Virus record (IMG/VR): IMGVR_UViG_3300043436_003145
Location: 1-40,257 of that record
From: a virus
Strand: one strand, 5' to 3'
Length of the DNA stretch: 40,257 bases
Shown here: positions 10,575 to 37,151 of the stretch, in pieces
Layout: each line of letters opens with the position of its first letter
Position numbering within the stretch: the stretch's first letter is position 1
Program-made: the position numbers and the translations under genes
Notes under the pieces: generated by a model
Database searches by the model: none
The model's input: only the letters and a program-made list of their open reading frames with translations
Told to the model about the DNA's origin: nothing

Positions 10575-10725
10575 GGGCTTCTTCGTACCGGCCATTGATA
10601 CGGAGAAAGCCCGAGAACTCGGGTTGCGCTCAGCGGTAGCTCAGCGCCTCCGTATCAAGACCGTGGCCGTCATCAAGGACGGGATGCTTGGGGTTTGGTT
10701 TTACCGCCCTCCCAAGCAGCCTTAG
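10534..10725 (+). CDS. Conserved-looking 63-residue protein
   Basis: This small protein overlaps the end of the primase-helicase gene by 41 bases. It begins with a tryptophan/proline patch (YPWTTLKPGEGFFVPAIDTE) and ends in GMLGVWFYRPPKQP. The pattern of a PGxxFFVP loop, a helix with alternating Ala/Arg, and a GxLGVxFYR strand is one I associate with small proteins in phage replication regions, which suggests a compact alpha/beta fold. No catalytic motif is present. Its stop TAG overlaps the stop of the giant - strand gene. Function unknown. Confidence 0.75.
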   Translation: MKTNYPWTTLKPGEGFFVPAIDTEKARELGLRSAVAQRLRIKTVAVIKDGMLGVWFYRPPKQP

Positions 10726-13700
10726 TCCGCGCCTTGCCGCGCCTCAATTGCCCGCTGCATCTTGATAAACGCCTCCGCCCGGCCCTGTCTGGCCTTGTCC
10801 AGCTCGTCCAAGCGCAAGCGCTTCTCTTCTGGCGTCAGGTCGTTGCGCCCCTGTGTGCGGCGAACGTCTTCGTTGATGCGGCCGATCACTTGACGGTACT
10901 GCCCGGCGGCGGGGGCCATGGCCAGCTCGACGCGGTGCTTGTCGCGGTACTCAACCGCTTCTTCCCTACGACCGCTCTTGAGTATGTCGTTGAAGGTGTT
11001 GCGAGTTTGCAGGATTTCATCGACTTCGCGGAACACCACGTCGGCATCTGCGCCGCCGTATTTCTTCTGGAAAGCTGTGCCCACAAGCGGCAGGTCCGAC
11101 GCACGGCCTGCAGGCTTCTCGCCCTTGTCTTCACGCGCAAACAAGTTGTTGGCAGCGGCCACGGCAGCCAGAGGCATCACGCCAAAGTAACCGCGCACAA
11201 TGTGCTCGATCTGGATGGGCGACAGGAGCGGCACAGCCTTGCTCATCTGCTTGGCCAGCTCTGTGGTGGTGGCAAGGTAGCGCTCTTCTGTGTCGAGGCC
11301 CTGCAAACGCAAGGACTCGACTGCGCCACCGGTCAAGAAGTTTTTGTTGGACCACACCTCAAACGCAGGCTTGACAATCTGCGGCACGAACGCGGACGAG
11401 TAGCCGGGGATAGAACCCAAAAACAGATCGCGGATGGCTTGCCACTGCGCCTTGCCGTCGGTCTCGGCACGCATGCTGTCCACAGCCGCCACAGCCAGCG
11501 AGAAGAAGTAGCCTGCTTCAAACGGGATCGGCAGCTTCAGTGGCTCGTCCACGCCGGGGATTGGCATGAAGAAGTTGGAGTACTTGTCCCGTGGGCGTGC
11601 GTTGCGGAAGGTCTCGTCGTCTTCCATGGCCATGGCGTATGCCACACCAGTAAAAGTCAACAGAAGCGCGTTGTTGAGGAACTTGCGCTTGATCTCTTGC
11701 TGCTCTTCAAACGGCATGTTGCCGCGTGCGGCTTTGACCAACACGTTCAGGCCCTGAATCTGTGCGTTGAAGAACGGGATCAGGCGGCTGGCGTACTGCA
11801 AGGTGGGAGACAGCCCCCGCTTGTAGAAGTTCATCGACTCCATCGTGGCCATGTCAGCCTCGACTTCGGACAACCCGCTGGCTTCAGCGTTCTTGAGCAC
11901 CAGCGCCAGTGTGGCGGCGTCAGCCCGCATGGCGTAGCGGTCGGCTGCAGCAAACACTTTTTCCCATGCGCTCTGGTCTTTGCCGCTGGCAAGCTGGAGC
12001 GCCATCTTCTTCATGTCCGACATGTCGCCTGCGAAGATGTTGGACTGGATCAAACCCTTCTCAACCAGCTTGGCCTGCGCGTCACTGCTGCCAGCGCTCA
12101 TGCGCAAGAACTCAGCGCCCGCCTTGAAGACAGAGGAGAACGCGTTCGACTCCAAGCCGCCGGTAAACGAAGCGGCCATGGGTTCGCGCAGCAGCTTGCG
12201 GGCAATGTACAAGGGTGTGCGGGTTACGCCAGCACGCAACCAGTCGGCAGCAATACCGCCCAATTTAAAGAAGCCGGGCAACGCAAGGCTCGCGCCTTCC
12301 AGACTCTGCACAACCAGTTCGGCGGGGATGCCCTCGGCAAGCGTGCCCTCGGTGTCCACGATGATGTGGCGCTTGCCGTCGTCTTTTGGGTCACTTGGGT
12401 CTGGCTCTTGGTAGAACCGGATGACTTTGGCATCGTCAGGGCCAAACCCCTTCTTGATGGCCATTACGTTCGAGGGTTTGCCTGTCTTTGGGTCGACAGG
12501 GCCTTTGCCTTTGCCCAGCGCCTGCAGGCCGTACGCCACGCTCTTGGCAGCGTTGTTGGTCAGCGCCATGTCTGTTAACAGCAGCGTGTTGCGCTGGATG
12601 GCTTCGTTTAGCGGCAACAGTTTTGTGTCGCCGCCCTTGAGTTCTGCAAGGTATGGCTGACGGCGAATGTCGCCCACGTTGAACTTGACGTTGTTGTTGA
12701 ACACCAAGTCGGCTTTGCCGTTTTTGTCCACGCGGTAGAAAGGCACGTAGTCGCCTTCCTTGAGCAAGTCCGCCGCTTCTTTTTTGGTAATACGTTGCGT
12801 GCTGGCAAGAAACTCAATCATGCCTTTGTTGTACGCGCTGTACTTGCGGCGCACGTTCTCCAGCGCAGATTTCAAGGCAGGGTTGGCTTCGGCTGCGGCC
12901 AAGGCAGCGTCCAAGTCTGCTTGCTTCAGCTCCATCGCCCCCAAGTCCAGCTTGGGCAAACCCTTGTTGTTGGCACGAACTGCAACCAAATACGTTTGCG
13001 CAAGATCGGTTTTCAGCTGCGGGTTGTCCACAGGGATGTCGGAAATAGCATCAAACACTTCCCGGGCGCTGTTCTGGTTTGAGCTGCGGTAGCCAGTCAG
13101 CCCCTTGGAGTCTTTGTACGCCACCAGCGGGCCGCTGTTCATCACGGTGAACATCTGCGCCATCTTCTGCTCAGCTTTGCGCACGTGGTACATGGCCTGA
13201 GTGAACAAAGTGTCGTCACCAAACTTGAGTGTGTCGCGCAGGCCCGCACGCATATCCACGCCCTGCATTTCAAGCTGCAGCGCAAGGTTGCTGCCAAGCT
13301 TTTCCTTGAGCGTCTTGGGCTGTGCAATGATTTTCTTCGACAGCGACTCCAGTGCGTCGGCGGGGGCACCGCGAGAGAACAGCAAGGTTCCGGCACCGGG
13401 ACGGCCTTTGCCTGCGGCCGGACCGACAGGCTTAAGATTTATACCAAGAATCTCTGGCGCTTGGTCAATGTACGCACGCTCAACAAATTTCCCGCGCTCG
13501 TTGTTTTGTTCGATGGCATCAATCCCTGCAGCCTTTAGAAGCTCCGTGGTTTTCTTGATGCCTACTTTTTCCCGCATGCTAAAAAACACCGTGTTGGCGG
13601 GATACGAGCCTGTTTCTTTAGCGGTACGTTTTGCCCAGTCGTCGCCGTATTTTTGGAGCAATGCGTCGAGCGCGGGACGTTCGCCAACTTTCAAGTTTGA

Positions 13701-16700
13701 GTTTACGGAATAGATGCGCGAACGAGGGATGTCGTCCAACGTACGGTAGAGGTTGCCTTTTGAGGGGTAGTCTTTAAGCGCCTTGATTTTTTGCAACGAC
13801 AAAGTGGCTGCGGCTTTCTCTTCTTTAGGAGTGCGTGCACCGGTTTGCAAGCGGTTCAACATCTCCTGTGCGTTTTTGTTTTTTGTAGGGTCAAGCGACT
13901 GCCCCGCGCTTACGCCCTCCAAATAAGCCGTTACCAGACGTGACTCAAACTTACCCTGCACATACGCAGTGGAAAGAACGTCGTTAGGCGTGCGCAAAAA
14001 CATTTCATCCAAGGCGCGGTAGTCTTGGTAGTCTTGCGTACCGTAGCCAGATTCGTTGGCCGCTTTACCAAAAGGCACTGCGTGTTGGTAATACTCTGCG
14101 TATTCTTTGTTGGGAGTGGTGTATGGCCCCACGCCCAGTGACTTCTCCGCCTCAAAGCGGAGATCAAACGCCCCTTCACCAGCTCCTGCGTACTTGGTAT
14201 TGAAGGCTGTAAACGCGGCATCGCTGCCGTGCCATGTGCCGCGCAACTCCAATTGGGCTGCGCCATACGCCATGTTGACAAGATCGCCAGTCGTCAGCGT
14301 CTTCACATTGATGCCATATTTGGACAGCGCGTTACGCAACACATCCATCACGGATTTAAGCCAGCTCCGGATCGGGCTGCCGCCTTGCAGAGCATCTGGG
14401 TTGACCCCTGCCTTGATTGCTTCTTCCACGGCGTAAGCCAACAACTCGTCATCGTACTGGTCGGCGGTTGTCTCGGCAGCTTCTACGCGAGCCACTGCGC
14501 GTTTAGCAATCTTTGACTCCAACGAGTTGTCGTTGCGGTTTGCCCAGCCTTTTACGGCAGATACCAGACGTGCGTACTGCGTTTTGTTGAACAGGTTGCG
14601 GAATCCGATGTGCACACCAACTTCGTGCAGTAATACGCCAAGCGCTTCGCCTTTGCCAATGTTGTCGGCAAACATAAACACTTGCCCGTTCTTCGGGTTT
14701 ACAAACGCCTTAGCGTCCGCAGGAATGTCAGCTCCGTCGTAGTCGTACTTGTACGCGGGATCGTTGAACAAGTCGCTGACGGATTGGAAAATCTTGATGC
14801 GCTTGCCTGCAACACCGGGATCGCCCACAACTTTGTCCAACGCTTTTTCAAGCGCCTCAACGGTTTGCCCGCCATCAGCAGGTGCGCCACGAGAAAACTC
14901 AAACTCAAAGTCGTCGTTACCGATCGTGTCACGACCAGAAAAAGATTTGAAACCGCTTGGCAGACCCACTTCTTCCTGATCGGCAGGAGCCGCAACTTCA
15001 GCTTCTTCTTGAACCTTCAGCAAACGTGCGCGGTCGCGCAGGGCTCCGTTAAGCATCCGCTCGGCGTAACCCAAGTCATCGCGCACTTTTTCTTTGCGTG
15101 TAGCGCTTTGAGGTGTCATGTTGGTTGCAGGGATGCTGTTTAAGTCCAGCAGCTCATTGGACAGGTTGTCGGCTGCAATTTGCAAACGCGCAATGTTGTC
15201 TTCTACAGCTTCGATAATCTGGTTCTGCGTTTCAACTTCTTTGGCAGCAAACTCTGCGTCCAGTGTTTCGGGAGTTTTTGCGTCAGCCAGACGTTGAGCA
15301 AAAGCGTTGGCGTCCGCTACAGCCTTTTCAGATGTGGGCTGCGCAACCGTGCGTGACTCAGTAATTGGGCGACGCGAAACACCGGGCTGCGCCTTGGACT
15401 CGGCTGTGCCTGCGCGGAGCTTGGCGGGGGCACTGGACTCGATCTTGGTGGCCTGCGACACCGCGCCCACTGTTTTGGGTTGCAGCGAGGCGGCAACTTC
15501 TTGTTGCTGATTGCGCAGCGAATTGATGGCTGCTTTCAGGTTGGCTAACTTCGTTGCACGCTCGGCCTGCTTCTCGCCCTCTGCAGGCGCAGGAGCCTTC
15601 TCTACGGCAGCCAAGGCGTTCTCAAGCTGTTCCAAACGATCGTTGACTTTGCCCAATTCTTTGACGCGCTCAACTTCGGCGTCAAACTGCTCTTGCTCAG
15701 TGAGGGTGGCCTTCTTTGGACGAGCCTCGATGCGCTTGTTCAAATCTGCTACGGATTCCGTCAGTGTTTCCACTTCCTTGGCAGCGGCAGCTTTTTCTGC
15801 TTTTGTTGCATCCTTGCTGTTGACGATGCTGCGCTGTGTGCGCAGGCGTGCCTGAGCGGTATCACGCTCTTCTTTCAGTGCGTCGATGTTGGCCAACGTG
15901 CGTTTAATGCCCAAGCGGTTTGAACGACGCGCCTTCAGTACATCGCGTTCCTTGAGGTACTCTTTCAGGTGTTTGTTGCGGTCAGCTTGTGAAGCCCTGA
16001 GCACTTTGAGGCGCTCGCGCATCTTGGCCAGCTTCTCTGGCGCTGTTTTACCGGCGTCTGCTTTGGCCTTGATGTCGCGGGCCATATCCAGAATAGCGGC
16101 ATCCGCTTTGACAACAGCAGCTTGCTTGCCTGCAATGGTCTTGTCCAGCTTATCCATCCGGGCGTCGATGGCTTTTGTAATCTCCTGATAAACCTCGGGG
16201 TCGCTGGACATGGCCTGTTCAGCTTTGGCCAAGGCCACCTGCTTGGTGGCGCGGGTCTTTTCATACTGCGTGATGGAGTCGCGCAAAGACTGGATGCGCT
16301 TGTTGTTCTCCTCCATTTTTTTCTTGTGCTCTTCCATCTTGGCAAAATGTTCTTTGCCCGCCTTGCTGTTCTTGCGTGGGCCACGGAACGACTTAGCCTG
16401 ATCTTGCAGGTCCAGCATCTCTTCGTGCATGAAATGGTCGCGCACTTGCAGCTCTTCAACGCCTTCACGCAAAGCCTCTATGTCTGCGTCTAGTTGAGCA
16501 AAGTCTTCGGTGGCCGCATTGACCATCTGAAACATTTCCTGACGCTTGCTGAAGTCGATGCGCTGACCGGGCAGTGCAGCAAGGCGCTTAGTGCGGCTTT
16601 GAAACTCTTCCAACTTTTGCTTGTCTTTGGCCAATGCCTCGGCACGGTCAAGCGCTGAGCGGGTATCGGGAGTACCAGCGGCAAGCTGCCCGGCAAAGGT

Positions 16701-19700
16701 GCGCTCTTCCCCAGCACGGATGATCTGGTCTTCAATGTTGTCCGCTTGGCGCTGGGTAGCCTGTTGTGCAAGCTGGGCCTTCTCGATCTCGGAGTCCAAC
16801 AGTGCCAGCTCACCTTCTACGCCGCGCAGCCCGGCGGTGCCGAGTTCTTTGGCAATGCCAACCTGTTCGCGCAGCGCTTTGACTTCGGGGTGCGTAGAGA
16901 TGTCCACCTTCAAATCGGCAGCCGCTTTGTCCAGCTTTTTCTTGAAGTGGAGGACAGAGCGTTTGGCGGCACCAATCTTTTGGCGGTCTTGCATGGCGTC
17001 CATTTGCAACTGCAGGTCGTTGTTCAAAAACGTAACCATGGCCGAAGAGGGCACGTACGGGTTATCCCGCTGCATGTCCATCAAGTCTTCCAGCGCATCA
17101 ATCTCTTTTTGAAGCCGCTCAACCGTGCGTGGTTGCGTGACCCGCGCCAGTGATTGTCGTTTTTGCAGGTCCTGCATCTTCTCCTGCATCTCGTACAAGA
17201 GTGGGTTGCGCTGGCGCTGCAAAGCGTCAATCACTTTGCGTTGTGCTTCGTCAATGGCAGGGCGCTTTTCTTCCAGACTGCCCAACTTGTTGCGGGCCTT
17301 GCGCAGTTCCGCTTTTGCGGCAACAGTGGCTTCCGCAGCACGGACCACCTTGTTGTCCATGTACTCAAAGCTGGCAATGTTGTTGGCAATCAGTCGGCTG
17401 GTTTCTTCGGAGCGTGCTTCGGCCGCAGCCAGATTGAGTTCCGCCTGCTCGTACGCCATGCGGATTGAGCCAAGGTCGTCGGCCAGTTGCGTAAGCAAAT
17501 CGGCAAGTTGAACCTCTGTGTCGGCAATAATTTTGTCAGCGGCACGGCGCTCAGACACTTGCACGGTTTGAAGCTCCGACCTGCGTTCTTGCAGCGCGTC
17601 AATTTGCTTTTGCGTGTCCGCAATCTTGGTCTCGTACTCTGTGACTTGTCTGCTTAAACGGGACACCGTCTCACGGGCTAAGCCTTGGTTCTCCCGCGCT
17701 TCTTTCAAGTAGTCGCTGGCCAAGTAGCGGTCAAGCTCTTCAGGCGTATCAAAAATGACGCCCTTTTGAATTGGCGCGTAACGCTCAGCGGCGGAGCCTT
17801 GCAGCGGGCCAACGTCTTCGGGAGAGACGTACTGCACTTTGCCTTTGACCACACGGGTCTCAGACTGAGGAGCGACGGCTTCTGGCATGAGTTCAGCGCC
17901 CAGCTCCAACTGTTTGCTATCGTCAGTTGCGGCTTTTTCAAGTGTGCTCAACGCACCGCGAATCTCTTCAACGCGAGCCAAATCGGAACGCCCAGTAACA
18001 GACACGCGATGCAACCATTCCGCCACCATGTTGCGGCGATCAGTGTTAGCGGCAAACGCATTAAAGTTTTCGGCAACCTGTTCCAACAAACGCATAACTT
18101 CCGGGGCATAGCGCTCGCGTTGGGCAAAGACACGATCCATCTGATCGAGCAACATGTCCTTGGAAGTCTGTGTCGGAGTTGGAGTCGCAGCGCCGTATGT
18201 GCCACGTTGCGTGCCTGCGCGCCAGCGAGCGCTCAGATCATCCAAAGCCTGCAACGCAGCATCGGAGTCTTCAGGTTTGTTGAGGATGGCATCAACGTCA
18301 CTGACAATCTGCGTAATGGTCTCAGGTTTGAGACGTCCACGCACCAACTGAATTTCTTTGAGCAGGTTACCGACAACCGCTTCACGCCGGTCTTGTTGGC
18401 GATTCAGGATGACATCTTGTGCCGCAGCAGTGCGGGCGTCCGCTGCTTCGCGTCGGGCTTTTTCTTGCTCTGGCAGTGCTGACATGGTGCCTGCGTTTTC
18501 TGGCAGGCTGGCATACCAATCTTCAACTGTCTGGTTGGGGGCACGCTCGGGAGTTCCGGCGGCAATGTACGCACGTACGGCGTCAGTGTCGCCCCCCATT
18601 GGGGCTCCCGCTTCAATCTTGGCCTGACGTGCTTTCAAATCCTTGATCTGTTCTATGAGGTCAGACACGCGTTCGCGGTTTGCACGTCGGCCTTCACGAT
18701 CGCTTGGGCGGGTAGCAGAGTCAGGTGCGCCATAACTCTTGGCCACATCCAGCTGTTTTTCCAAATCAGCAATCTGAGCGTTGATGTCCACCGGAGTCCC
18801 GGTTTGGGGCATGTTGACGCGCTGCGCAGCACCGCCAAACAGCTCACCTTGGGTGACGGTTTGTGTCGGCATCACCGCTTGGCGCTCAGCAAAAGCAATA
18901 TCGGAATCGGTCACTCCTTGGCGGCGGTCAACATCCAGCACATCGGACTGCTCCATGAACGCGGCCATGGGGTTTACAGGTTCTGCGCTCACCTGTTGGC
19001 CTTGTAGCTCTGTCTGACGTGCTGCCAGCTCTTCTTTGCTCATTGCCTTGATCTTCTTAGCCACGTCGTTCAGGATCAGGCGGCTTTCGCTGGCAGACAG
19101 GCCGGGCAGCGGTGTCTTGGTTTCAATCACCAGCAACGCTTTGTACGGGTCTTGCAGCAAGTAGTCCGCATAGTCTTGCGCGGTCGGGTCGTACGTTTGG
19201 GTGCGCGCCAGCTCCATACGCTCAGCAGCGTATGCGACGGGGACAGCCGCAACGCGGGCACGCTCTGCTTCTTCCGCTTCTGCCACGCGGGCACGCTCTG
19301 CTTCTTCTGCTTTGCGGCGCTCTTCGCTTGGCACAATGATTTGCGGATCGTAGTAGCCTTCAAGATCAGGCTCCGCAACCTTTGCGGGTTTGTTGCTGAC
19401 CGTCTTTGACTGCTCCACCATGTAGTCAAAGGGGTCCATGCCTGCAACGCGGGCACGCTCCAATGCCTGCTGGTACAGGCCGGACTGCTTTACGCGGGAA
19501 ACTTCTGAGGCATTTTTGTTTCGAGCAGCCGCATTAATTTGGAGCTTGGCGTTGATCTCTTTGTTGAACGCTTTGTCCTCGGCTTCGGTAAGAGAGTCCT
19601 TGCTGATCTTGCGAATCTGTTGGTCTAACGCAACCTTCTCTTGCTCCAGCGCGGTCTGTTCGTTGACAATTCGCAGCGCGTACTCAGGCGTCTGACGCTC

Positions 19701-20696
19701 AGCCGCTTCTTTCTCGGCGGCAACACGCTCTTGCTCGGCGGCTTCTTTGGCTGCCACGTTGCGCTCGTCACGCTCGGCTCGGGCTGCCTGTGTCTTGGCT
19801 CCGCTGCGCTCAATGTAGCGACCGGCAGGGGCGATAGCGCCGCCCAACACCGCACCGCCAATGAAGCTCTCAATGTACTCTTCACGGGCTTCGGGGTCCG
19901 CAATGTTCAGGCCTGCCTGCAAACGCTCAAGCGACTGCTGCACGACTTCGGTGAAACCTTCGCGGCCCATGGCCAGACCCGTCTTGGCGGTGTAGTCTGC
20001 AGCGGCCTTGCCCAGCGTCTGGCTGGCGATGGCCTTGGCCTGCTCGGTTGTCAGCTTGGAGCCCACGGAGCCAAACAGTTTGCCCACACCGGGTATCAAC
20101 GCCATGGCGGCGGTGTCGATCAGGGCTTGGGGGATGGCAGCGCCAAGGGCGGCTGCGCCGCTGGCCTCTTCCAGTGATTTGCCGGTGCCCACTTGACGGG
20201 ATAGGTTGGAGCCCGTGAACTGCCCTGCCGACACAGCGCCAGCGCCCAGCAAGCCCGCGCCTATGGCCACCGGGGCCGACACTGGGAGAGCCAGTGCAGC
20301 AAGACCTGCAGCTGCAGGGGCAACCATGGATGGGAGAGACCCGCCAAGGGTTTCTCGGAACTTCAGGCCGAAGTCTTCAGTCCAGCCTTTCTCGGTGGGG
20401 GTGAAGCGTTCGCTTGCTTTCTTTTCGGCAGCTTCGTATTCGCGCTGCGCTTTGGCTTGGTCTTTGAACCCGGCCTTGCCCATGAGCAGTTCGAACTCGC
20501 CGCCCAAGCGGGTGAGACCGGCGGATGCTGCTGCCTTCAACCCGGAGGTGTCTTGCTTGGGCCGCGCTTCTTTTTCTTCTTCAAACCCAAAGGCTTCGGG
20601 GTACATGCGCTGAGCACGCTCCCATGTTTGCGCAGGGGTCTCCCCCTCACGAATTGCTACAGTTGTGCCGTCTGGTAGAGGGAGTGCTTTTGCCAT
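10722..20696 (-). CDS. Giant polyvalent virion protein with metallopeptidase-like and ADP-ribosyltransferase-like modules
   Basis: This 3324-residue protein is the last gene of the structural block. It starts LPLPDGTTVAIREGETPAQT, a short opening domain seen in other phage ejection-type proteins. Glycine/alanine-rich hydrophobic stretches follow (about 119-160 and 179-212). About 1000-1900 is mostly heptad-rich coiled coil. FSRGAPAD occurs at 1934-1941 and again at 2440-2447. Between them lie LLHEVGVHIG (H2024, E2025, H2029), a zincin-like motif with one extra residue, and a module from WHGS (H2156) to GVGPYTTPNKEYAEYY (Y2192), matching ADP-ribosyltransferases of polyvalent proteins. The C-terminus from about 2800 (LPGFFKLGGIAADWL, then RTPLYIARKLLREP) resembles the region closing many polyvalent phage proteins. 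I found no vRNAP motifs. I infer packaging in the virion and ejection with DNA to act in the new host. The start lacks a strong Shine-Dalgarno. Confidence 0.85.
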   Translation of the reverse strand: MAKALPLPDGTTVAIREGETPAQTWERAQRMYPEAFGFEEEKEARPKQDTSGLKAAASAGLTRLGGEFELLMGKAGFKDQAKAQREYEAAEKKASERFTPTEKGWTEDFGLKFRETLGGSLPSMVAPAAAGLAALALPVSAPVAIGAGLLGAGAVSAGQFTGSNLSRQVGTGKSLEEASGAAALGAAIPQALIDTAAMALIPGVGKLFGSVGSKLTTEQAKAIASQTLGKAAADYTAKTGLAMGREGFTEVVQQSLERLQAGLNIADPEAREEYIESFIGGAVLGGAIAPAGRYIERSGAKTQAARAERDERNVAAKEAAEQERVAAEKEAAERQTPEYALRIVNEQTALEQEKVALDQQIRKISKDSLTEAEDKAFNKEINAKLQINAAARNKNASEVSRVKQSGLYQQALERARVAGMDPFDYMVEQSKTVSNKPAKVAEPDLEGYYDPQIIVPSEERRKAEEAERARVAEAEEAERARVAAVPVAYAAERMELARTQTYDPTAQDYADYLLQDPYKALLVIETKTPLPGLSASESRLILNDVAKKIKAMSKEELAARQTELQGQQVSAEPVNPMAAFMEQSDVLDVDRRQGVTDSDIAFAERQAVMPTQTVTQGELFGGAAQRVNMPQTGTPVDINAQIADLEKQLDVAKSYGAPDSATRPSDREGRRANRERVSDLIEQIKDLKARQAKIEAGAPMGGDTDAVRAYIAAGTPERAPNQTVEDWYASLPENAGTMSALPEQEKARREAADARTAAAQDVILNRQQDRREAVVGNLLKEIQLVRGRLKPETITQIVSDVDAILNKPEDSDAALQALDDLSARWRAGTQRGTYGAATPTPTQTSKDMLLDQMDRVFAQRERYAPEVMRLLEQVAENFNAFAANTDRRNMVAEWLHRVSVTGRSDLARVEEIRGALSTLEKAATDDSKQLELGAELMPEAVAPQSETRVVKGKVQYVSPEDVGPLQGSAAERYAPIQKGVIFDTPEELDRYLASDYLKEARENQGLARETVSRLSRQVTEYETKIADTQKQIDALQERRSELQTVQVSERRAADKIIADTEVQLADLLTQLADDLGSIRMAYEQAELNLAAAEARSEETSRLIANNIASFEYMDNKVVRAAEATVAAKAELRKARNKLGSLEEKRPAIDEAQRKVIDALQRQRNPLLYEMQEKMQDLQKRQSLARVTQPRTVERLQKEIDALEDLMDMQRDNPYVPSSAMVTFLNNDLQLQMDAMQDRQKIGAAKRSVLHFKKKLDKAAADLKVDISTHPEVKALREQVGIAKELGTAGLRGVEGELALLDSEIEKAQLAQQATQRQADNIEDQIIRAGEERTFAGQLAAGTPDTRSALDRAEALAKDKQKLEEFQSRTKRLAALPGQRIDFSKRQEMFQMVNAATEDFAQLDADIEALREGVEELQVRDHFMHEEMLDLQDQAKSFRGPRKNSKAGKEHFAKMEEHKKKMEENNKRIQSLRDSITQYEKTRATKQVALAKAEQAMSSDPEVYQEITKAIDARMDKLDKTIAGKQAAVVKADAAILDMARDIKAKADAGKTAPEKLAKMRERLKVLRASQADRNKHLKEYLKERDVLKARRSNRLGIKRTLANIDALKEERDTAQARLRTQRSIVNSKDATKAEKAAAAKEVETLTESVADLNKRIEARPKKATLTEQEQFDAEVERVKELGKVNDRLEQLENALAAVEKAPAPAEGEKQAERATKLANLKAAINSLRNQQQEVAASLQPKTVGAVSQATKIESSAPAKLRAGTAESKAQPGVSRRPITESRTVAQPTSEKAVADANAFAQRLADAKTPETLDAEFAAKEVETQNQIIEAVEDNIARLQIAADNLSNELLDLNSIPATNMTPQSATRKEKVRDDLGYAERMLNGALRDRARLLKVQEEAEVAAPADQEEVGLPSGFKSFSGRDTIGNDDFEFEFSRGAPADGGQTVEALEKALDKVVGDPGVAGKRIKIFQSVSDLFNDPAYKYDYDGADIPADAKAFVNPKNGQVFMFADNIGKGEALGVLLHEVGVHIGFRNLFNKTQYARLVSAVKGWANRNDNSLESKIAKRAVARVEAAETTADQYDDELLAYAVEEAIKAGVNPDALQGGSPIRSWLKSVMDVLRNALSKYGINVKTLTTGDLVNMAYGAAQLELRGTWHGSDAAFTAFNTKYAGAGEGAFDLRFEAEKSLGVGPYTTPNKEYAEYYQHAVPFGKAANESGYGTQDYQDYRALDEMFLRTPNDVLSTAYVQGKFESRLVTAYLEGVSAGQSLDPTKNKNAQEMLNRLQTGARTPKEEKAAATLSLQKIKALKDYPSKGNLYRTLDDIPRSRIYSVNSNLKVGERPALDALLQKYGDDWAKRTAKETGSYPANTVFFSMREKVGIKKTTELLKAAGIDAIEQNNERGKFVERAYIDQAPEILGINLKPVGPAAGKGRPGAGTLLFSRGAPADALESLSKKIIAQPKTLKEKLGSNLALQLEMQGVDMRAGLRDTLKFGDDTLFTQAMYHVRKAEQKMAQMFTVMNSGPLVAYKDSKGLTGYRSSNQNSAREVFDAISDIPVDNPQLKTDLAQTYLVAVRANNKGLPKLDLGAMELKQADLDAALAAAEANPALKSALENVRRKYSAYNKGMIEFLASTQRITKKEAADLLKEGDYVPFYRVDKNGKADLVFNNNVKFNVGDIRRQPYLAELKGGDTKLLPLNEAIQRNTLLLTDMALTNNAAKSVAYGLQALGKGKGPVDPKTGKPSNVMAIKKGFGPDDAKVIRFYQEPDPSDPKDDGKRHIIVDTEGTLAEGIPAELVVQSLEGASLALPGFFKLGGIAADWLRAGVTRTPLYIARKLLREPMAASFTGGLESNAFSSVFKAGAEFLRMSAGSSDAQAKLVEKGLIQSNIFAGDMSDMKKMALQLASGKDQSAWEKVFAAADRYAMRADAATLALVLKNAEASGLSEVEADMATMESMNFYKRGLSPTLQYASRLIPFFNAQIQGLNVLVKAARGNMPFEEQQEIKRKFLNNALLLTFTGVAYAMAMEDDETFRNARPRDKYSNFFMPIPGVDEPLKLPIPFEAGYFFSLAVAAVDSMRAETDGKAQWQAIRDLFLGSIPGYSSAFVPQIVKPAFEVWSNKNFLTGGAVESLRLQGLDTEERYLATTTELAKQMSKAVPLLSPIQIEHIVRGYFGVMPLAAVAAANNLFAREDKGEKPAGRASDLPLVGTAFQKKYGGADADVVFREVDEILQTRNTFNDILKSGRREEAVEYRDKHRVELAMAPAAGQYRQVIGRINEDVRRTQGRNDLTPEEKRLRLDELDKARQGRAEAFIKMQRAIEARQGAD
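19252..19307 (-). repeat. 33-bp direct repeat in the giant gene
   Basis: A 23-base sequence occurs at 19252-19274 and again at 19285-19307, a period of 33 bases or 11 codons. It encodes two copies of an EEAERARVA-type helical unit in the N-terminal third of the giant protein. A third, shorter match (ACGCGGGCACGCTC) lies near 19447. Confidence 0.8.
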
Positions 20697-31885: not shown

Positions 31886-33376
31886 TTATGGGTGGGAAAG
31901 CTTGTACGCGTCGAACTCGGCTTTAAGTTCTTGGATGGCTTGAACCAGCACGGGGATGAGTGACTGGTCGTTGAAGCGCAACTTCTCGTCGTCTTCGGCA
32001 TCGACAATAACAGGGGTGTCGCCTTCCAGCGCCAATACTTCCTGTGCCTTGAAACCGTAACGCAGCGGGCCGTGGCCTTCGGTTGCTTCACGGTCGATCT
32101 TGTAGCGGTAGGCTGTGGGCTTGAGACCAAGCACGAAAGCCAAGCCGTGCGGGACCGGAGCAAAGTCTGTTTTGTCCCGTGCGTCAGAGACAACAGTCCA
32201 CGCAACTTGCACATAGGCGTTGGTCACCGCAGTGGTGCCCATGCTGATGCGATCGTTCTGGTTGGTGATGGCAAAGACCGGCGAGATAGCCGACCCACTG
32301 GTTAAACCCCCAACGGCAATGTTGCCCGCACCCGTTGTGACCGCACGCATTGACGCACGGCCGATTGCCGTGTTGTTGGATGCTGTGGTGCCCGTGTACA
32401 TTGCGTCGTACCCAATGGCGACGTTGCTGTTGCCTTCCGTGATGGAGTACAACGATTGGAAACCCCATGCTGTGTTGTATCCGGCAGTGGTGGCTGTGAA
32501 CATCGACGCGTAGCCGCCAGCGGTGTTCTGCGGAGCAGAGGTGCTGGACCACAGCACTTGGTAACCAACGGCGGTGTTCGAGCTACCGTTACCGTTAAAC
32601 GCTGCTTGATGCCCAATAGCGGTGTTACCGCTGGCCGTGGTTAGGTTTTGCATTGATTGCTGGCCAACAGCAGTGTTGAACGTGCCCGAAGTAACACCGT
32701 TCAGCGCCAGATAGCCAAACGCTTGGTACCCACCCGAAGTGTCTTGCTTGCCGTACACGGTGCCCACCGCTGAAGGTGTGGCCACTGCGGGCGTTGTCGA
32801 AATGTTGCCAGACCCCAGCAGGCTGGTGCTGTTGATGGTTTTGATGTTTGTGCCGGACACCAACGTCTCTTGCGCCGACAGCGCTGTGCGTGCGTTTGCT
32901 GCTGTGGTAGAACCCGTGCCCCCAGATGTGATGGGCAGTGCTGTGCTCAGCGCCAGCGAGGTCAGGAACGTGACCTGAGCCCCAACGTCCGTGCCGTTGT
33001 TGTACACCACTGTGCGCGTGCCAGCAGGGACTGCCACCCCAGTTTGGCCAGACACCTTGACCGTCACCGTGTAGCTCGATCCGTTGATGATCAGGTATGG
33101 CTTCTGAATGGCGGGAACATTCACCGTGCCTGCAGCCGACACCGCGCCAGCGTCGATGTTCAAGCACAGAGCCCGGGCATCCTGCGCAGCGTTGGTGTTG
33201 GACAGCGTCAGGGTTGCCACGTTGGCCGTGAAGTCTGCGGCTTCCAGAGTGGCCATGCCCACGATGGCCTGCTCGATGGCGGTTCCAATGTTGGCGTTGG
33301 TCGTGGTGCCCCAGACGCCTGACTGCTCACCGTTGCCGATCAGCTCGAACTTGAGGTTGGAGAATGTGCTGGACAT
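31886..33376 (-). CDS. Tail fibre with YadA-like head repeats and S74 chaperone
   Basis: This 496-residue fibre starts with a virion-attachment region (about 1-190). Around 215-360 a run of short repeats of the (S/N)NTAVG, NTAIG and NVAIG type follows, which in YadA-like adhesins form trimeric left-handed beta-rolls. The last 100 residues carry the S74 intramolecular chaperone: VVSDARDKTDF gives the nucleophile Ser397 with Asp398 and Lys402, where the trimer is expected to cut itself after folding. Then follow RYGFKAQEV and a C-terminal helix. It probably binds the host surface. The S74 domain is nearly the same as that of the larger fibre encoded just upstream. AAGGAAAC precedes ATG. Confidence 0.88.
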   Translation of the reverse strand: MSSTFSNLKFELIGNGEQSGVWGTTTNANIGTAIEQAIVGMATLEAADFTANVATLTLSNTNAAQDARALCLNIDAGAVSAAGTVNVPAIQKPYLIINGSSYTVTVKVSGQTGVAVPAGTRTVVYNNGTDVGAQVTFLTSLALSTALPITSGGTGSTTAANARTALSAQETLVSGTNIKTINSTSLLGSGNISTTPAVATPSAVGTVYGKQDTSGGYQAFGYLALNGVTSGTFNTAVGQQSMQNLTTASGNTAIGHQAAFNGNGSSNTAVGYQVLWSSTSAPQNTAGGYASMFTATTAGYNTAWGFQSLYSITEGNSNVAIGYDAMYTGTTASNNTAIGRASMRAVTTGAGNIAVGGLTSGSAISPVFAITNQNDRISMGTTAVTNAYVQVAWTVVSDARDKTDFAPVPHGLAFVLGLKPTAYRYKIDREATEGHGPLRYGFKAQEVLALEGDTPVIVDAEDDEKLRFNDQSLIPVLVQAIQELKAEFDAYKLSHP

Positions 33377-33377
33377 G

Positions 33378-36300
33378 TCAGTTTCCTTTTAATGCGGCGA
33401 CGTCCGCCTTGAGCTGGTCGATGATAACTTGCTGCTCTTGAATGGCTTTAGCCAAAATGGCCAGCAAGTTCTGGTCGTTGAAGTACAACTTCTCTGGAGT
33501 CCCCGCGTCAATGACCACCGGGTTGTCCCCTTCAAGCTCAAGGATGTCCTGCGCTTTGAAACCGTACCGCAGCGGGCCGTGGCCTTCGGTTGCATCACGC
33601 GACTCTTTGAAGCGGTATGCAGTGGGCTTGAGTTTTGTTACAAAATCCAAGCCGTGCGGAACCGGGGCAAAGTCCGTTTTGTCTCGGGCATCTGACACTA
33701 CAGTCCACGCAACCTGCACGTAGGCGTTTGTAATCGCCCCCGTACCCATGCTGATGTAGTTGCTTTGCGTCGTAATGTTAAATACTGGGTTGTTGCCCCC
33801 GGCAGCATTCAGACCGCCGATAGCTACGTTGCCAGAACCTGTAGACATGGAAAAGCCCGCATACTGGCCCAGACAGATGTTACGGTTGCCTGTCGTTATG
33901 CTGTACCCAGCGTACATGCCTAAAAGAACGCCGCCTGCGGCGCTAGTCCCGCTGTACCCTGCTTGGAAGCCAACCGCCACGTTTTCGCCGTTAGACGGTG
34001 TCCCGGAGGGGGAAAGGTTGTACAGGGCGTCGTGCCCAATGGCTACGTTTGAACCTGACCCCACGCAAGTCCGCAAGGTGTTGTTCCCCATGGCTATGTT
34101 TCGGGACCCTGTAGTACAAGCAATCAAGGAGTCAGACCCCACGGCCGTGTTAAAACTGCCCGAGGAAATAAGCTGCCCTGCGCTCCGACCCACAGCTGTG
34201 TTTCCCGCACCGCTGGTGACCGCGCTCAAAACGCCGGAGCCGACAGCAGTGTTATTACTGCCGGACAAAGAAAAAGAGTTTAGTGTGGCGTTTCCCACGG
34301 CCACGTTGGTGAAGTTAACTGGTTGCCAAAGCCACGTACTTCCAACAATGATTTTTGTCCCGTCCCAAAGCAAGTTGGACGAAGCGCCAAACGTGCCGCC
34401 GTTGTTAAACTGAATTTGTTGGCTGCTGCCCGCAGGTGTCGTAGTAGGCGCTGCTACCCACGATGGCGCTGCAGCGCCGTTGGAGCGCAAAAACTGGCCA
34501 GAAGAACCTGCTGCCAACTGTACGGTTGTGCCCGCAGCCGATTGGTACGGGATTGTGCCCGCGCTGCCGCCAGCCAAGTTTGTTGCGGTGGTCGCAGTGC
34601 TTGCAAGCAGCGATGTGAGGGTGGGGCCAGCAAGCACCGTTCCGTAACTGCTGTTGTTTAGCTGCGCAACCCAGCCTGATTGCCAATTGCTGGCCGCATA
34701 GTTTGAGTAGCCCGCCTGCACGTCTGTGACAGAGACAACCGGGAAATTCCAATAGTCACCGATGTTTCCGATAAAGAAAGAGTGTCGAGTACCATCCCAA
34801 CCCCACCGCGTATTTAACGCTGCGCGGCTGCCTGTCAGCATGTATGCAAACTGGTTTGCAATACCGCCACCGTAGATGTACGCCCCGCAACGAATGTCAA
34901 ACGACTGTCCGTCATATGTCCAGACGGTGATGGTCATCCGAAACATTGAATTGGTGGCCGCTGCAGGCAACTGGATTTGAATTGCGCCGTTACCGCCGCT
35001 GGTGTAAAAAGCCGCTCCCCCGGGACTGACCACTCGCAATGAAGCATTACCGCCAGAGACATCTGTCAAGGCTCGCGTGGTGTTTATGCTCCCTGTCTGA
35101 AAGTCGCCGTTGCTGTCACGCGCCACGATTGCGTTGGTGGTGTTGGCGCTTGTCGCGTTGGATGTGACGGTGAACGTCGCATTCCCTGCTTGGTTGGCAG
35201 CGAAAGTCTGTGAACCCGACAGGCCAGTGCCCGACACGTTCATTGTAAGCGTGCCGTTGTTGACGTTGGCCGCTGTGGTGGCTGTCGATGCGTTGCCATT
35301 CAAGGCAGCAGTGATCGTGCCAGCACTGAAGTTACCCGAGCCATCCCGAGCAACAATCGCATTGGCGGTGTTTGTGTTTGTTGCGTTGCTGGTAACGGTG
35401 AACGTAGCGGCAGCGGACTGGTTGGCCGTGAAAGTCTGCGAACCTGACAGGCCCGTGCCCGACACGTTCATTGTGAGCGTGCCGTTGTTGACGTTGGCCG
35501 CTGTGGTGGCTGTGGTGGCGTTGCCACTCAAAGCCGCAGTAATCACGTTTGCACTAAAGTTGCCGGAGGCATCCCGAGCAACGATGGTCGAAGCGGTGTT
35601 TGTGTTTGTTGCGTTTGTGGCCAGCGTGACTGCGCCGGAGCCGTTGTAACTCGTGCCGGTCAGGTAGGTGCCGAACGTCAGGGTGTTCAAGTTGCTGCCC
35701 AAGGCCACGCCCGAGATCGTGCCAGCACTCCATGTGAACGCAGAGCCGTTCCAATTCAAGACTTGGTTGGAGGCTGTTGGGGCGGTGATGAAAGCCGAGA
35801 TGCCCGCGCTGGTCTGGTACGCGATCCGGTTGGCCGCGCCACCTGCAAGGTTGGTCGCTGTGGTCGCGCTCGTTGCTGCGCCAGACAAAGTGGCCGTGAT
35901 GGTCCCTGCGCTGAAGTTGCCCGAGGCGTCACGCGCTACAACCTTGGATGCTGTATTGGCGTCCGTGGCATCCACGGCAAAGGTGCGAGCTGCAGAGCCA
36001 TCAAACGTGCCGCCAGAGGTCAGGAAGCTCCCAGCCGTCAGTGCGTTGGCCACCGAGCCAGCTTGGCCAGAGATGTTGCCCGAGACCGCTGCGCCCGAGA
36101 TGGCGATAGCCGTGGGCGTGACACCTGTGACTTGGCCCTGTGCGTTGGTGGTGATCACCGGGACAGAGGACGCGGAGCCGTACGTGCCCGCAGTGCCGAT
36201 GTTGTCGATGTTGAACGTGTAGGAAGGTGACTCGCTCAGGCCCGTGCCTGCCGTATAGGTGATCGGCGCAGAGAACTGCTGGAACACAATCGCGGTTGTG

Positions 36301-37151
36301 CCGATGGTGATCGGAGGTGGTGTCTGCTGTACCCAAGCAGTGTTGACGTTGGCCGTGCCGCTGGTCACCAAGAAGAAGTCACCCTCGTCAATCTGGTCAA
36401 CCCCGGTTCCAACAGAATCCATGTCTGTTGAGCGGGTCAGGATGTATGGCGTTCCAGCAGAACCGACCTGCGTGACAACGTAGACGCCGTTATTGGCTCC
36501 GGCCACTTCGTTCTTGACCAGTATCCGTTCTGCAACAATAGTCAGGGTCGAGTCTACCGACAGAGCGCCGTTGGTATTGCCTGTGAGCGTTGCCCCAACT
36601 CCGGCTGTGCCGTTGTTGTACGTGTTTGCTGGCAGAGCGGCCGTGGTGGCCAAGGCCACCGCTTCATGGAAGTGAATGCCCGATGCAATGGCGTCAGCGT
36701 ATTCTTTGTTGACAATGTCCGTGTTGTTGACCGGGGCCGTGGCGACAGTGCCCGCCGTGATGTTGGCCGTAGTGATGTTGGCCGTGCTGGTGCCCAGAGT
36801 CCCGATGTCCAGCGTTGTGACGGCAGAGCCCGCTGCGTCCAGATACACCGCACGCGACGATGGGTATGTGACAAACACGTCCTTGGAGCCAGCGCCAAAG
36901 TTCACCAGCGAGCCAGCATTGCTGGACGACACCACCGTGGTCCGGGACAGGGTTGTGCCCGAGGCTGTATAGGTTCCAACACCTACCTCCCAATCGCCAG
37001 ATGTTGCGTCCGCGATGGCGTAGAAGGTCTGGTTGCCATCACCAACAGCAGCAAACGACTGGAACCCTGCGGCTGCGCCAGCCAACGTCACCGTGCCAGT
37101 GCCCGTTGTTGTGGTCGTTTCCTTGACGCGATCTTTGAGTACCAGTGCCAT
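33378..37151 (-). CDS. Large tail fibre with repeats and S74 chaperone
   Basis: This 1257-residue fibre begins MALVLKDRVKETTTTTGTGTVTL, an N-terminus I associate with phage fibres that dock on the tail. The middle has long Thr/Asn/Ala-rich repeats, including a 76-residue unit (VNNGTLTMNVSGTGLSGSQT) present in two full copies and part of a third (about 500-680). A globular domain near 740-850 (MFRMTITVWTYDGQSFDIR, SRAALNTRWGWDG) may bind the receptor. YadA-like NTAVG repeats lie near 970-1110. The S74 chaperone starts at Ser1153 in VVSDARDKTDF, close to that of the smaller fibre. AAGGACTC precedes ATG. Confidence 0.88.
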   Translation of the reverse strand: MALVLKDRVKETTTTTGTGTVTLAGAAAGFQSFAAVGDGNQTFYAIADATSGDWEVGVGTYTASGTTLSRTTVVSSSNAGSLVNFGAGSKDVFVTYPSSRAVYLDAAGSAVTTLDIGTLGTSTANITTANITAGTVATAPVNNTDIVNKEYADAIASGIHFHEAVALATTAALPANTYNNGTAGVGATLTGNTNGALSVDSTLTIVAERILVKNEVAGANNGVYVVTQVGSAGTPYILTRSTDMDSVGTGVDQIDEGDFFLVTSGTANVNTAWVQQTPPPITIGTTAIVFQQFSAPITYTAGTGLSESPSYTFNIDNIGTAGTYGSASSVPVITTNAQGQVTGVTPTAIAISGAAVSGNISGQAGSVANALTAGSFLTSGGTFDGSAARTFAVDATDANTASKVVARDASGNFSAGTITATLSGAATSATTATNLAGGAANRIAYQTSAGISAFITAPTASNQVLNWNGSAFTWSAGTISGVALGSNLNTLTFGTYLTGTSYNGSGAVTLATNATNTNTASTIVARDASGNFSANVITAALSGNATTATTAANVNNGTLTMNVSGTGLSGSQTFTANQSAAATFTVTSNATNTNTANAIVARDGSGNFSAGTITAALNGNASTATTAANVNNGTLTMNVSGTGLSGSQTFAANQAGNATFTVTSNATSANTTNAIVARDSNGDFQTGSINTTRALTDVSGGNASLRVVSPGGAAFYTSGGNGAIQIQLPAAATNSMFRMTITVWTYDGQSFDIRCGAYIYGGGIANQFAYMLTGSRAALNTRWGWDGTRHSFFIGNIGDYWNFPVVSVTDVQAGYSNYAASNWQSGWVAQLNNSSYGTVLAGPTLTSLLASTATTATNLAGGSAGTIPYQSAAGTTVQLAAGSSGQFLRSNGAAAPSWVAAPTTTPAGSSQQIQFNNGGTFGASSNLLWDGTKIIVGSTWLWQPVNFTNVAVGNATLNSFSLSGSNNTAVGSGVLSAVTSGAGNTAVGRSAGQLISSGSFNTAVGSDSLIACTTGSRNIAMGNNTLRTCVGSGSNVAIGHDALYNLSPSGTPSNGENVAVGFQAGYSGTSAAGGVLLGMYAGYSITTGNRNICLGQYAGFSMSTGSGNVAIGGLNAAGGNNPVFNITTQSNYISMGTGAITNAYVQVAWTVVSDARDKTDFAPVPHGLDFVTKLKPTAYRFKESRDATEGHGPLRYGFKAQDILELEGDNPVVIDAGTPEKLYFNDQNLLAILAKAIQEQQVIIDQLKADVAALKGN
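35110..35650 (-). repeat. 228-bp repeat in the large fibre gene
   Basis: Blocks starting near 35120, 35348 and 35577 are similar. The sequence GTGCCCGACACGTTCATTG recurs exactly 228 bases apart (35227 and 35455), and the next 50 bases match with few changes. It encodes the 76-residue fibre repeat and could recombine, changing fibre length. Confidence 0.85.

Follow-up and report, generated by a model that had tools for sequence, protein, structure and literature searches.

S74 is one of many modules described for the fibre proteins of contractile injection systems (passages of PMC12923769), and mosaic fibres and spikes, intramolecular chaperone domain included, have already been published (passages of PMC10684548). 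In the S74-type proteins T5 pb1 (S1264/K1269; passages of PMC4690869) and MYRF (S578/K583; passages of PMC3742443), a serine and a lysine lie five residues apart, and in Kuttervirus (Ackermannviridae) tailspikes receptor modules are described as swapped among the genes of one phage (passages of PMC8432352). We analysed IMG/VR virus record IMGVR_UViG_3300043436_003145, a complete record of 40,257 bases (the window), which carries two adjacent fibre genes on its minus strand, here called gene A and gene B, both ending in an S74 domain. We lean towards reading this locus as a two-slot fibre cassette in which tips made of a head and a chaperone turn over by recombination. Tips appear to have been exchanged between viruses, and perhaps also between the two genes.

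Gene A (33378–37151, minus strand) is an open reading frame (ORF) for a long tail-fibre protein of 1257 amino acids, with a conserved N-terminal trunk (about residues 1–474), a repetitive middle and an exchangeable tip. Gene B (31886–33376, minus strand), an ORF for a shorter fibre protein of 496 amino acids, has a conserved N-terminus (about residues 1–149) followed by a head and S74, and a single base separates the stop codon of gene A from the start of gene B. Both proteins exceed the curated cut-off of 22 bits for PF13884 Peptidase_S74, with 38.1 bits (E = 1.9e-9) for B and 36 bits (E = 8.5e-9) for A, and these are the only two matches to the family reported in the record; the preliminary description of two adjacent minus-strand S74 fibres was correct in this respect. 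As expected of S74 chaperones, the domain is C-terminal and lies behind the fibre or spike part. It extends from the putative cleavage serine to the C-terminus, that is, from Ser1153 in gene A (33378–33695, minus strand) and from Ser397 in gene B (31886–32188, minus strand). Upstream of it, repeat spacing and alignment delimit a head in each protein. The gene A head, with NTAVG-type repeats mostly 17 residues apart (33696–34319, minus strand, outer limit approximate), is probably the receptor-binding part, and the gene B head is built of 16–17-residue repeats (32189–32752, minus strand, outer limit approximate).

Replacement of a tip is seen in contig L084 (IMGVR_UViG_3300044695_000162). This contig has one mismatch in 5813 bases to the window down to position 34445, after which about 1 kb encoding the tip of gene A (head and S74) differs. 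Past the replaced tract (33441–34445, minus strand), identity is back at 33440 for 69 bases, and seven differences fall in the 252 bases after these, most of which belong to the beginning of gene B. Provided that L084 is correctly assembled, the sequence of gene A has been exchanged here next to an almost unchanged trunk, which substantiates the replacement of a receptor part that had been proposed for this locus. The new head is identical to that of gene B at 77 of 133 positions and to that of gene A at 47, and within the 42 residues before S74 the corresponding numbers are 31 and 23. The relationship is reversed in S74 itself, where 85 of 98 residues are identical to A and 79 to B, and the protein ends in the same 17 residues as A. 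A breakpoint test on A, B and L084 gene A places the switch at residues 1081–1087 of L084 gene A at the DNA level, just before the putative cleavage serine (Ser1088), and at residues 1104–1107 at the amino acid level; residues 1075–1104 of this protein contain no position that is informative for the test. In DNA and protein alike, none of 2000 permutations gave a signal as large.

Viral contigs matching one of six peptide patterns were searched with the L084 tip, and 80 of 228 were kept. Besides itself, the tip matches best gene B of the window phage (E = 2e-122 and 8e-123, on two contigs), then its gene A (E = 4e-100), and the next contig follows at E = 2e-86. Among the ORFs examined, nothing outside this phage matches the gene B head better than the head swapped into gene A of L084.

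Beyond this pair of contigs, the N-terminal parts of A and B recur in the same order across many contigs and are followed by varying C-termini. The locus thus shows the conserved N-terminal parts and exchangeable C-terminal tips of a receptor-module exchange cassette, with direct exchange in one contig. Residues 1–149 of gene B are common to many contigs, where they precede other C-termini, and the best segments of gene A are 57–100% identical among the 80 loci listed. To count S74 domains in this arrangement, we used loci gathered by similarity to A, B or S74 (80 kept of 102, 254 and 414 confirmed) in which gene A is at least 65% identical and reaches residue 460 and gene B is at least 60% identical with an uncut 3' end. 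Among the resulting 28 distinct close A–B pairs (gene A 5'-cut in four), S74 is present on A only in 17, on neither gene in 9, on both in one (this phage) and on B only in one (L029). Gene B is therefore without S74 in 26 of 28 pairs; the domain is rare on this gene within the set, and gene B probably acquired its S74. Five of the S74-free gene B proteins were checked and have no Pfam match; the others were called by the S74 profile only. The selection rule left out loci such as L050, L064, L071 and L080, in which the first gene is A-like only over its first 107–111 residues and both this gene and gene B carry S74. One relative (L238) came from a scan of genome contigs, and L003, L004, L005 and L083 are 99.98–100% identical to the window over their overlaps.

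Two relatives have arrangements of their own. L029 (3468–8761), a related phage, is a mirror image of the more common layout, with a distant-type S74 on gene B and none found on gene A. L159 (5998–10293) belongs to Methylophilales phage Venkman and contains an annotated array of fibre-like genes including an S74 gene; at the start of the array is an N-terminus resembling that of gene A (71% over 106 residues).

The two S74 ends of the window had been described as nearly alike, with DNA differences mostly at synonymous sites, and neither statement survives alignment. Protein identity is 70% (67 and 72% in two other alignments). The DNA copies, which are in register with an offset of 1507 bases, have an identity of 0.692 across 104 codons, and their differences divide into 41.2 synonymous and 54.8 non-synonymous ones. 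It is the rate per site that is higher at synonymous positions (dS 1.05, dN 0.274). The motif NAYVQVAWTVVSDARDK is the same in A and B, as stated, and lies in a 27-residue block without differences. This agreement is no product of chance, but neither is it peculiar to A and B: beyond this phage and the contigs identical to it, the exact 17-mer is present in 22 distinct contexts, L084 among them (338 sequences examined, overlapping pieces of one contig included), and is therefore a mark of the domain family and not a sign of a recent copy. The upstream parts were said to differ. This holds for the heads, but the likeness of A and B runs upstream into the 16–17-residue repeat head, which had been missed; it begins before S74 because each S74 sits behind an NTAVG-type repeat head.

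The serine and lysine of the putative cleavage site show the expected spacing (Ser397/Lys402 in B, Ser1153/Lys1158 in A), and both columns are invariant in all 27 aligned tips. In 56 of 61 distinct S74 contexts, gene B and L084 gene A among them, the residue 21 positions upstream of the serine is an arginine, a candidate for the folding sensor contributed by a neighbouring chain. Gene A of the window has Tyr1132 (33756–33758) at this position, and the same allele is present in L003, L004 and L083. Two of the five contexts without the arginine are this tyrosine allele of gene A (a whole and a cut copy), and the other three (L029, L159 and L160) differ more widely nearby. For comparison, the folding-sensor arginine of T5 pb1 is located 14 residues before the serine, as against 21 for the candidate arginine here (passages of PMC4690869). 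Over the S74 region, profile matches to solved chains comprise the tail fibre 8jov (E = 0.00016), the tail spike 6eu4 (E = 0.001) and the neck appendage 3gud (E = 0.0031). A Pfam search returned no match for the head. Its repeat pattern presumably resembles that of YadA-type heads.

How the two genes came to share this end can be explained in several ways. According to the preliminary description, a recent tandem duplication within this phage was followed by replacement of the receptor part, a model that accommodates the adjacency of the genes, the in-register block and the different heads. The divergence of the copies speaks against it, since a DNA identity of 0.692 and a dS of about 1 are far from the low synonymous divergence that such an event predicts. 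Moreover, A and B are not mutual nearest relatives. Outside this phage the S74 of gene A is closest to that of gene A of L006/L084 (88%; next 71%) and the S74 of gene B to genes of other contigs (83, 82 and 81%), and the S74 of A is outranked in closeness to that of B by 20 distinct sequences of other contigs, one of them L006/L084 gene A. In trees of S74 domains, A joins L006 (100/98), and B takes no resolved position among foreign genes. An exclusive A+B clade is rejected by the approximately unbiased (AU) test (p = 7.1e-5), largely because L006/L084 gene A is the sister of A. Relatives conserve the N-terminal part of A and that of B independently of each other, which means that no recent duplication involved the whole gene. 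On the identity ranking, the trees with AU tests and dN/dS, recent duplication was rejected; these comparisons exclude it for the S74 domains of A and B, and the full model of recent duplication and replacement is highly improbable.

An older form of duplication is part of the explanation we prefer. A and B alone are rejected as a group, but a group of A, L006/L084 gene A and B on S74 alone is not (AU p = 0.196 for protein and 0.058 for DNA), p values that are descriptive because this grouping was defined with the first tree already in view. Once the 54 residues upstream of the serine are added, the three tips form a clade at 91/73.8. Where two S74 domains share a locus (14 distinct pairs in 12 loci), A and B are also the most similar (0.69), the other 13 pairs ranging from 0.22 to 0.57. 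A shared origin further back in time is thus possible for the two tips and weakly favoured by the sequence data. Identical synonymous codons are in excess as well (46 of 77, against 30.4 expected from codon usage; z = 3.8), and we considered gene conversion between A and B, for which the clustering of these codons in one 15-column stretch (10 of 11 identical) would speak. However, a 20-nt stretch of the same dense block, read from codons, is also present in L162, and the excess for B and L162 (z = 3.3) nearly equals that for A and B.

Alternatively, the tips of A and B may have been taken at different times from a widespread pool of aquatic phages, with no event linking them within this lineage. 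We regard this as somewhat unlikely, but it has evidence on its side: the 20 outside sequences nearer to B, the separation of A and B in the S74-only protein and DNA trees, and the wide occurrence of this S74 type. Of 14 foreign loci with such S74 genes, six (L162, L163, L165, L166, L169 and L170) have no counterpart to any of 17 window proteins or protein parts and the remaining eight match one to six, as far as the contig stretches examined extend (in one of the six just 4.4 kb); the type is thus found in related and in apparently unrelated phages. Independent acquisition does not readily explain why the L084 tip is nearest to the B and then the A tip of the window, why A and B are the most similar of the 14 pairs, or why their codon identity exceeds expectation, although the last point is tempered by the B–L162 value.

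Several observations weigh against tip exchange in this lineage. Among the pattern-matching contigs, the gene A head of the window is only 31–45% identical to anything outside this phage, bar one 23-residue match. The breakpoint signal could partly arise from unequal rates in head and S74. The three-tip clade is moderately supported and does not appear in the protein and DNA trees of S74 alone on which the AU tests were based, whose bootstraps had not settled. S74 on B-like genes is less rare in a wider tally by locus signatures, which also takes in loci that overlap, weak matches to B and genes that are cut: of 133 loci with such a gene, 24 have S74 in it, mostly of another clade. In a tree of 113 S74 domains, obtained from 185 ORFs with a match after dropping domains below 60 bits or 90 residues and collapsing identical ones, 12 distinct sequences of this wider set form a separate clade (support 99) far from the S74 of gene B in the window. 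Loci of this kind with a second S74 gene have an identity of 0.22–0.57 between their two domains. The AlphaFold2 model is of low confidence (mean predicted local distance difference test score 66.2), and the structure search found no PDB match at E ≤ 0.001; the ICA chains 7dc3, 3gud and 3gw6 are among the 43 matches listed, all with E > 1. Finally, the swap is seen in one contig, L084, which ends inside gene B and is possibly mis-assembled. Assembly of metagenomes can merge strains where they have sequence in common, and L084 might accordingly be a chimera, leaving an old pair of genes with diverged tips and no recent swap. Both junctions leave the reading frame open, however, and beyond the tract identity returns, with the 17 C-terminal residues of A and then the beginning of B in their proper order, although a chimera is compatible with this too. 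We consider a chimeric origin quite improbable.

In the two-slot cassette that we favour, each gene would keep its own N-terminal attachment part, and the exchangeable tip would consist of the repeat head followed by S74. By analogy with T5 pb1 and MYRF, S74 would trimerise the head and then cut itself off at its first serine; the heads would bind receptors, with two specificities. Tips would recombine as a unit of head and S74, for which gene A provides one case if L084 is correctly assembled, and the breakpoint statistics suggest that the conserved block around the cleavage site also served as the joint between head and chaperone. In this lineage, the pool of tips that supplied gene A probably also gave gene B its S74 tip, a step with moderate support, and since the synonymous sites are far diverged, this acquisition would have taken place long ago. 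The outcome is two fibres whose heads differ in sequence and which may therefore differ in specificity. A more speculative extension, which we hold to be unlikely, is that the block at the cleavage site serves permanently as a joint for recombination: heads would move between genes and phages while each slot keeps a working chaperone, the population would test combinations of heads at two sites, and the gene A chaperone, without the near-invariant arginine, may cut poorly and stay in place as a cap.

The shared sequence had also been proposed to allow deletion of one fibre by recombination between the copies, an idea that finds no support. The longest exact DNA match between A and B is 26 nt (33568–33593 in gene A, 32061–32086 in gene B, both on the minus strand). 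None of the records searched shows a fusion deletion: neither the three with both S74 copies (the window, L003 and L004), nor L083 and L084, which run from A into B, nor L005, which has part of B. L083, L084 and L005 end or begin within the first 200 codons of gene B (about 32780–33308 of the window), which would fit population variation at this place.

In the record as a whole, genes for replication (DNA polymerase, helicase, primase/helicase) lie on the plus strand and those for the virion on the minus strand. The PHROG matches of the C-terminal part of gene A are to tail spike and virion structural families. Further upstream in this gene, positions 35101–35556 hold two tandem 228-nt copies (78% identical), probably shaft repeats. 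A quarter of the record is taken up by a minus-strand ORF of 3324 amino acids (10722–20696), whose sole PHROG match at E ≤ 0.001 is to a family of unknown function, near the C-terminal end.

Exchange of fibre modules is well known, and this locus adds another case of such host-range evolution; our literature searches found no title or abstract start naming this two-gene cassette. Like the S74/ICA chaperones of the K1F endosialidase, T5 pb1, phage neck appendages and MYRF, the domains of A and B are C-terminal, belong to PF13884 and have a serine and lysine five residues apart. In contrast to those proteins, S74 is located here behind a repeat head, gene A has a tyrosine in place of the common arginine, and cleavage is putative. 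With Kuttervirus the locus shares several receptor-binding genes per phage, conserved N-termini, C-terminal modules common to different genes and a conserved proposed joint; there, the joint is proposed on the N-terminal side of the module, whereas here it lies at the boundary between head and S74, and the protein families are different (passages of PMC8432352). In the metaviromic islands of marine phages, the fibre C-terminus also varies among related phages, in one example with a C-terminal YadA domain, but that variation was deduced from read recruitment, and the passages of PMC3909814 at hand contain neither a two-gene cassette nor an S74 mosaic. Alteromonas phages A5 and V22 provide a parallel in that fibre and chaperone are jointly common to distant phages, although the chaperone there is a separate protein and not a fused S74 domain (passages of PMC10579305). 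To these systems the present locus adds a near-isogenic natural pair, in which all but identical stretches of 5.8 kb carry two different tips of head and chaperone, plus a second slot with a related head, and thus a compact, tidy system in which to ask whether a head and its self-cleaving chaperone have to be exchanged together.

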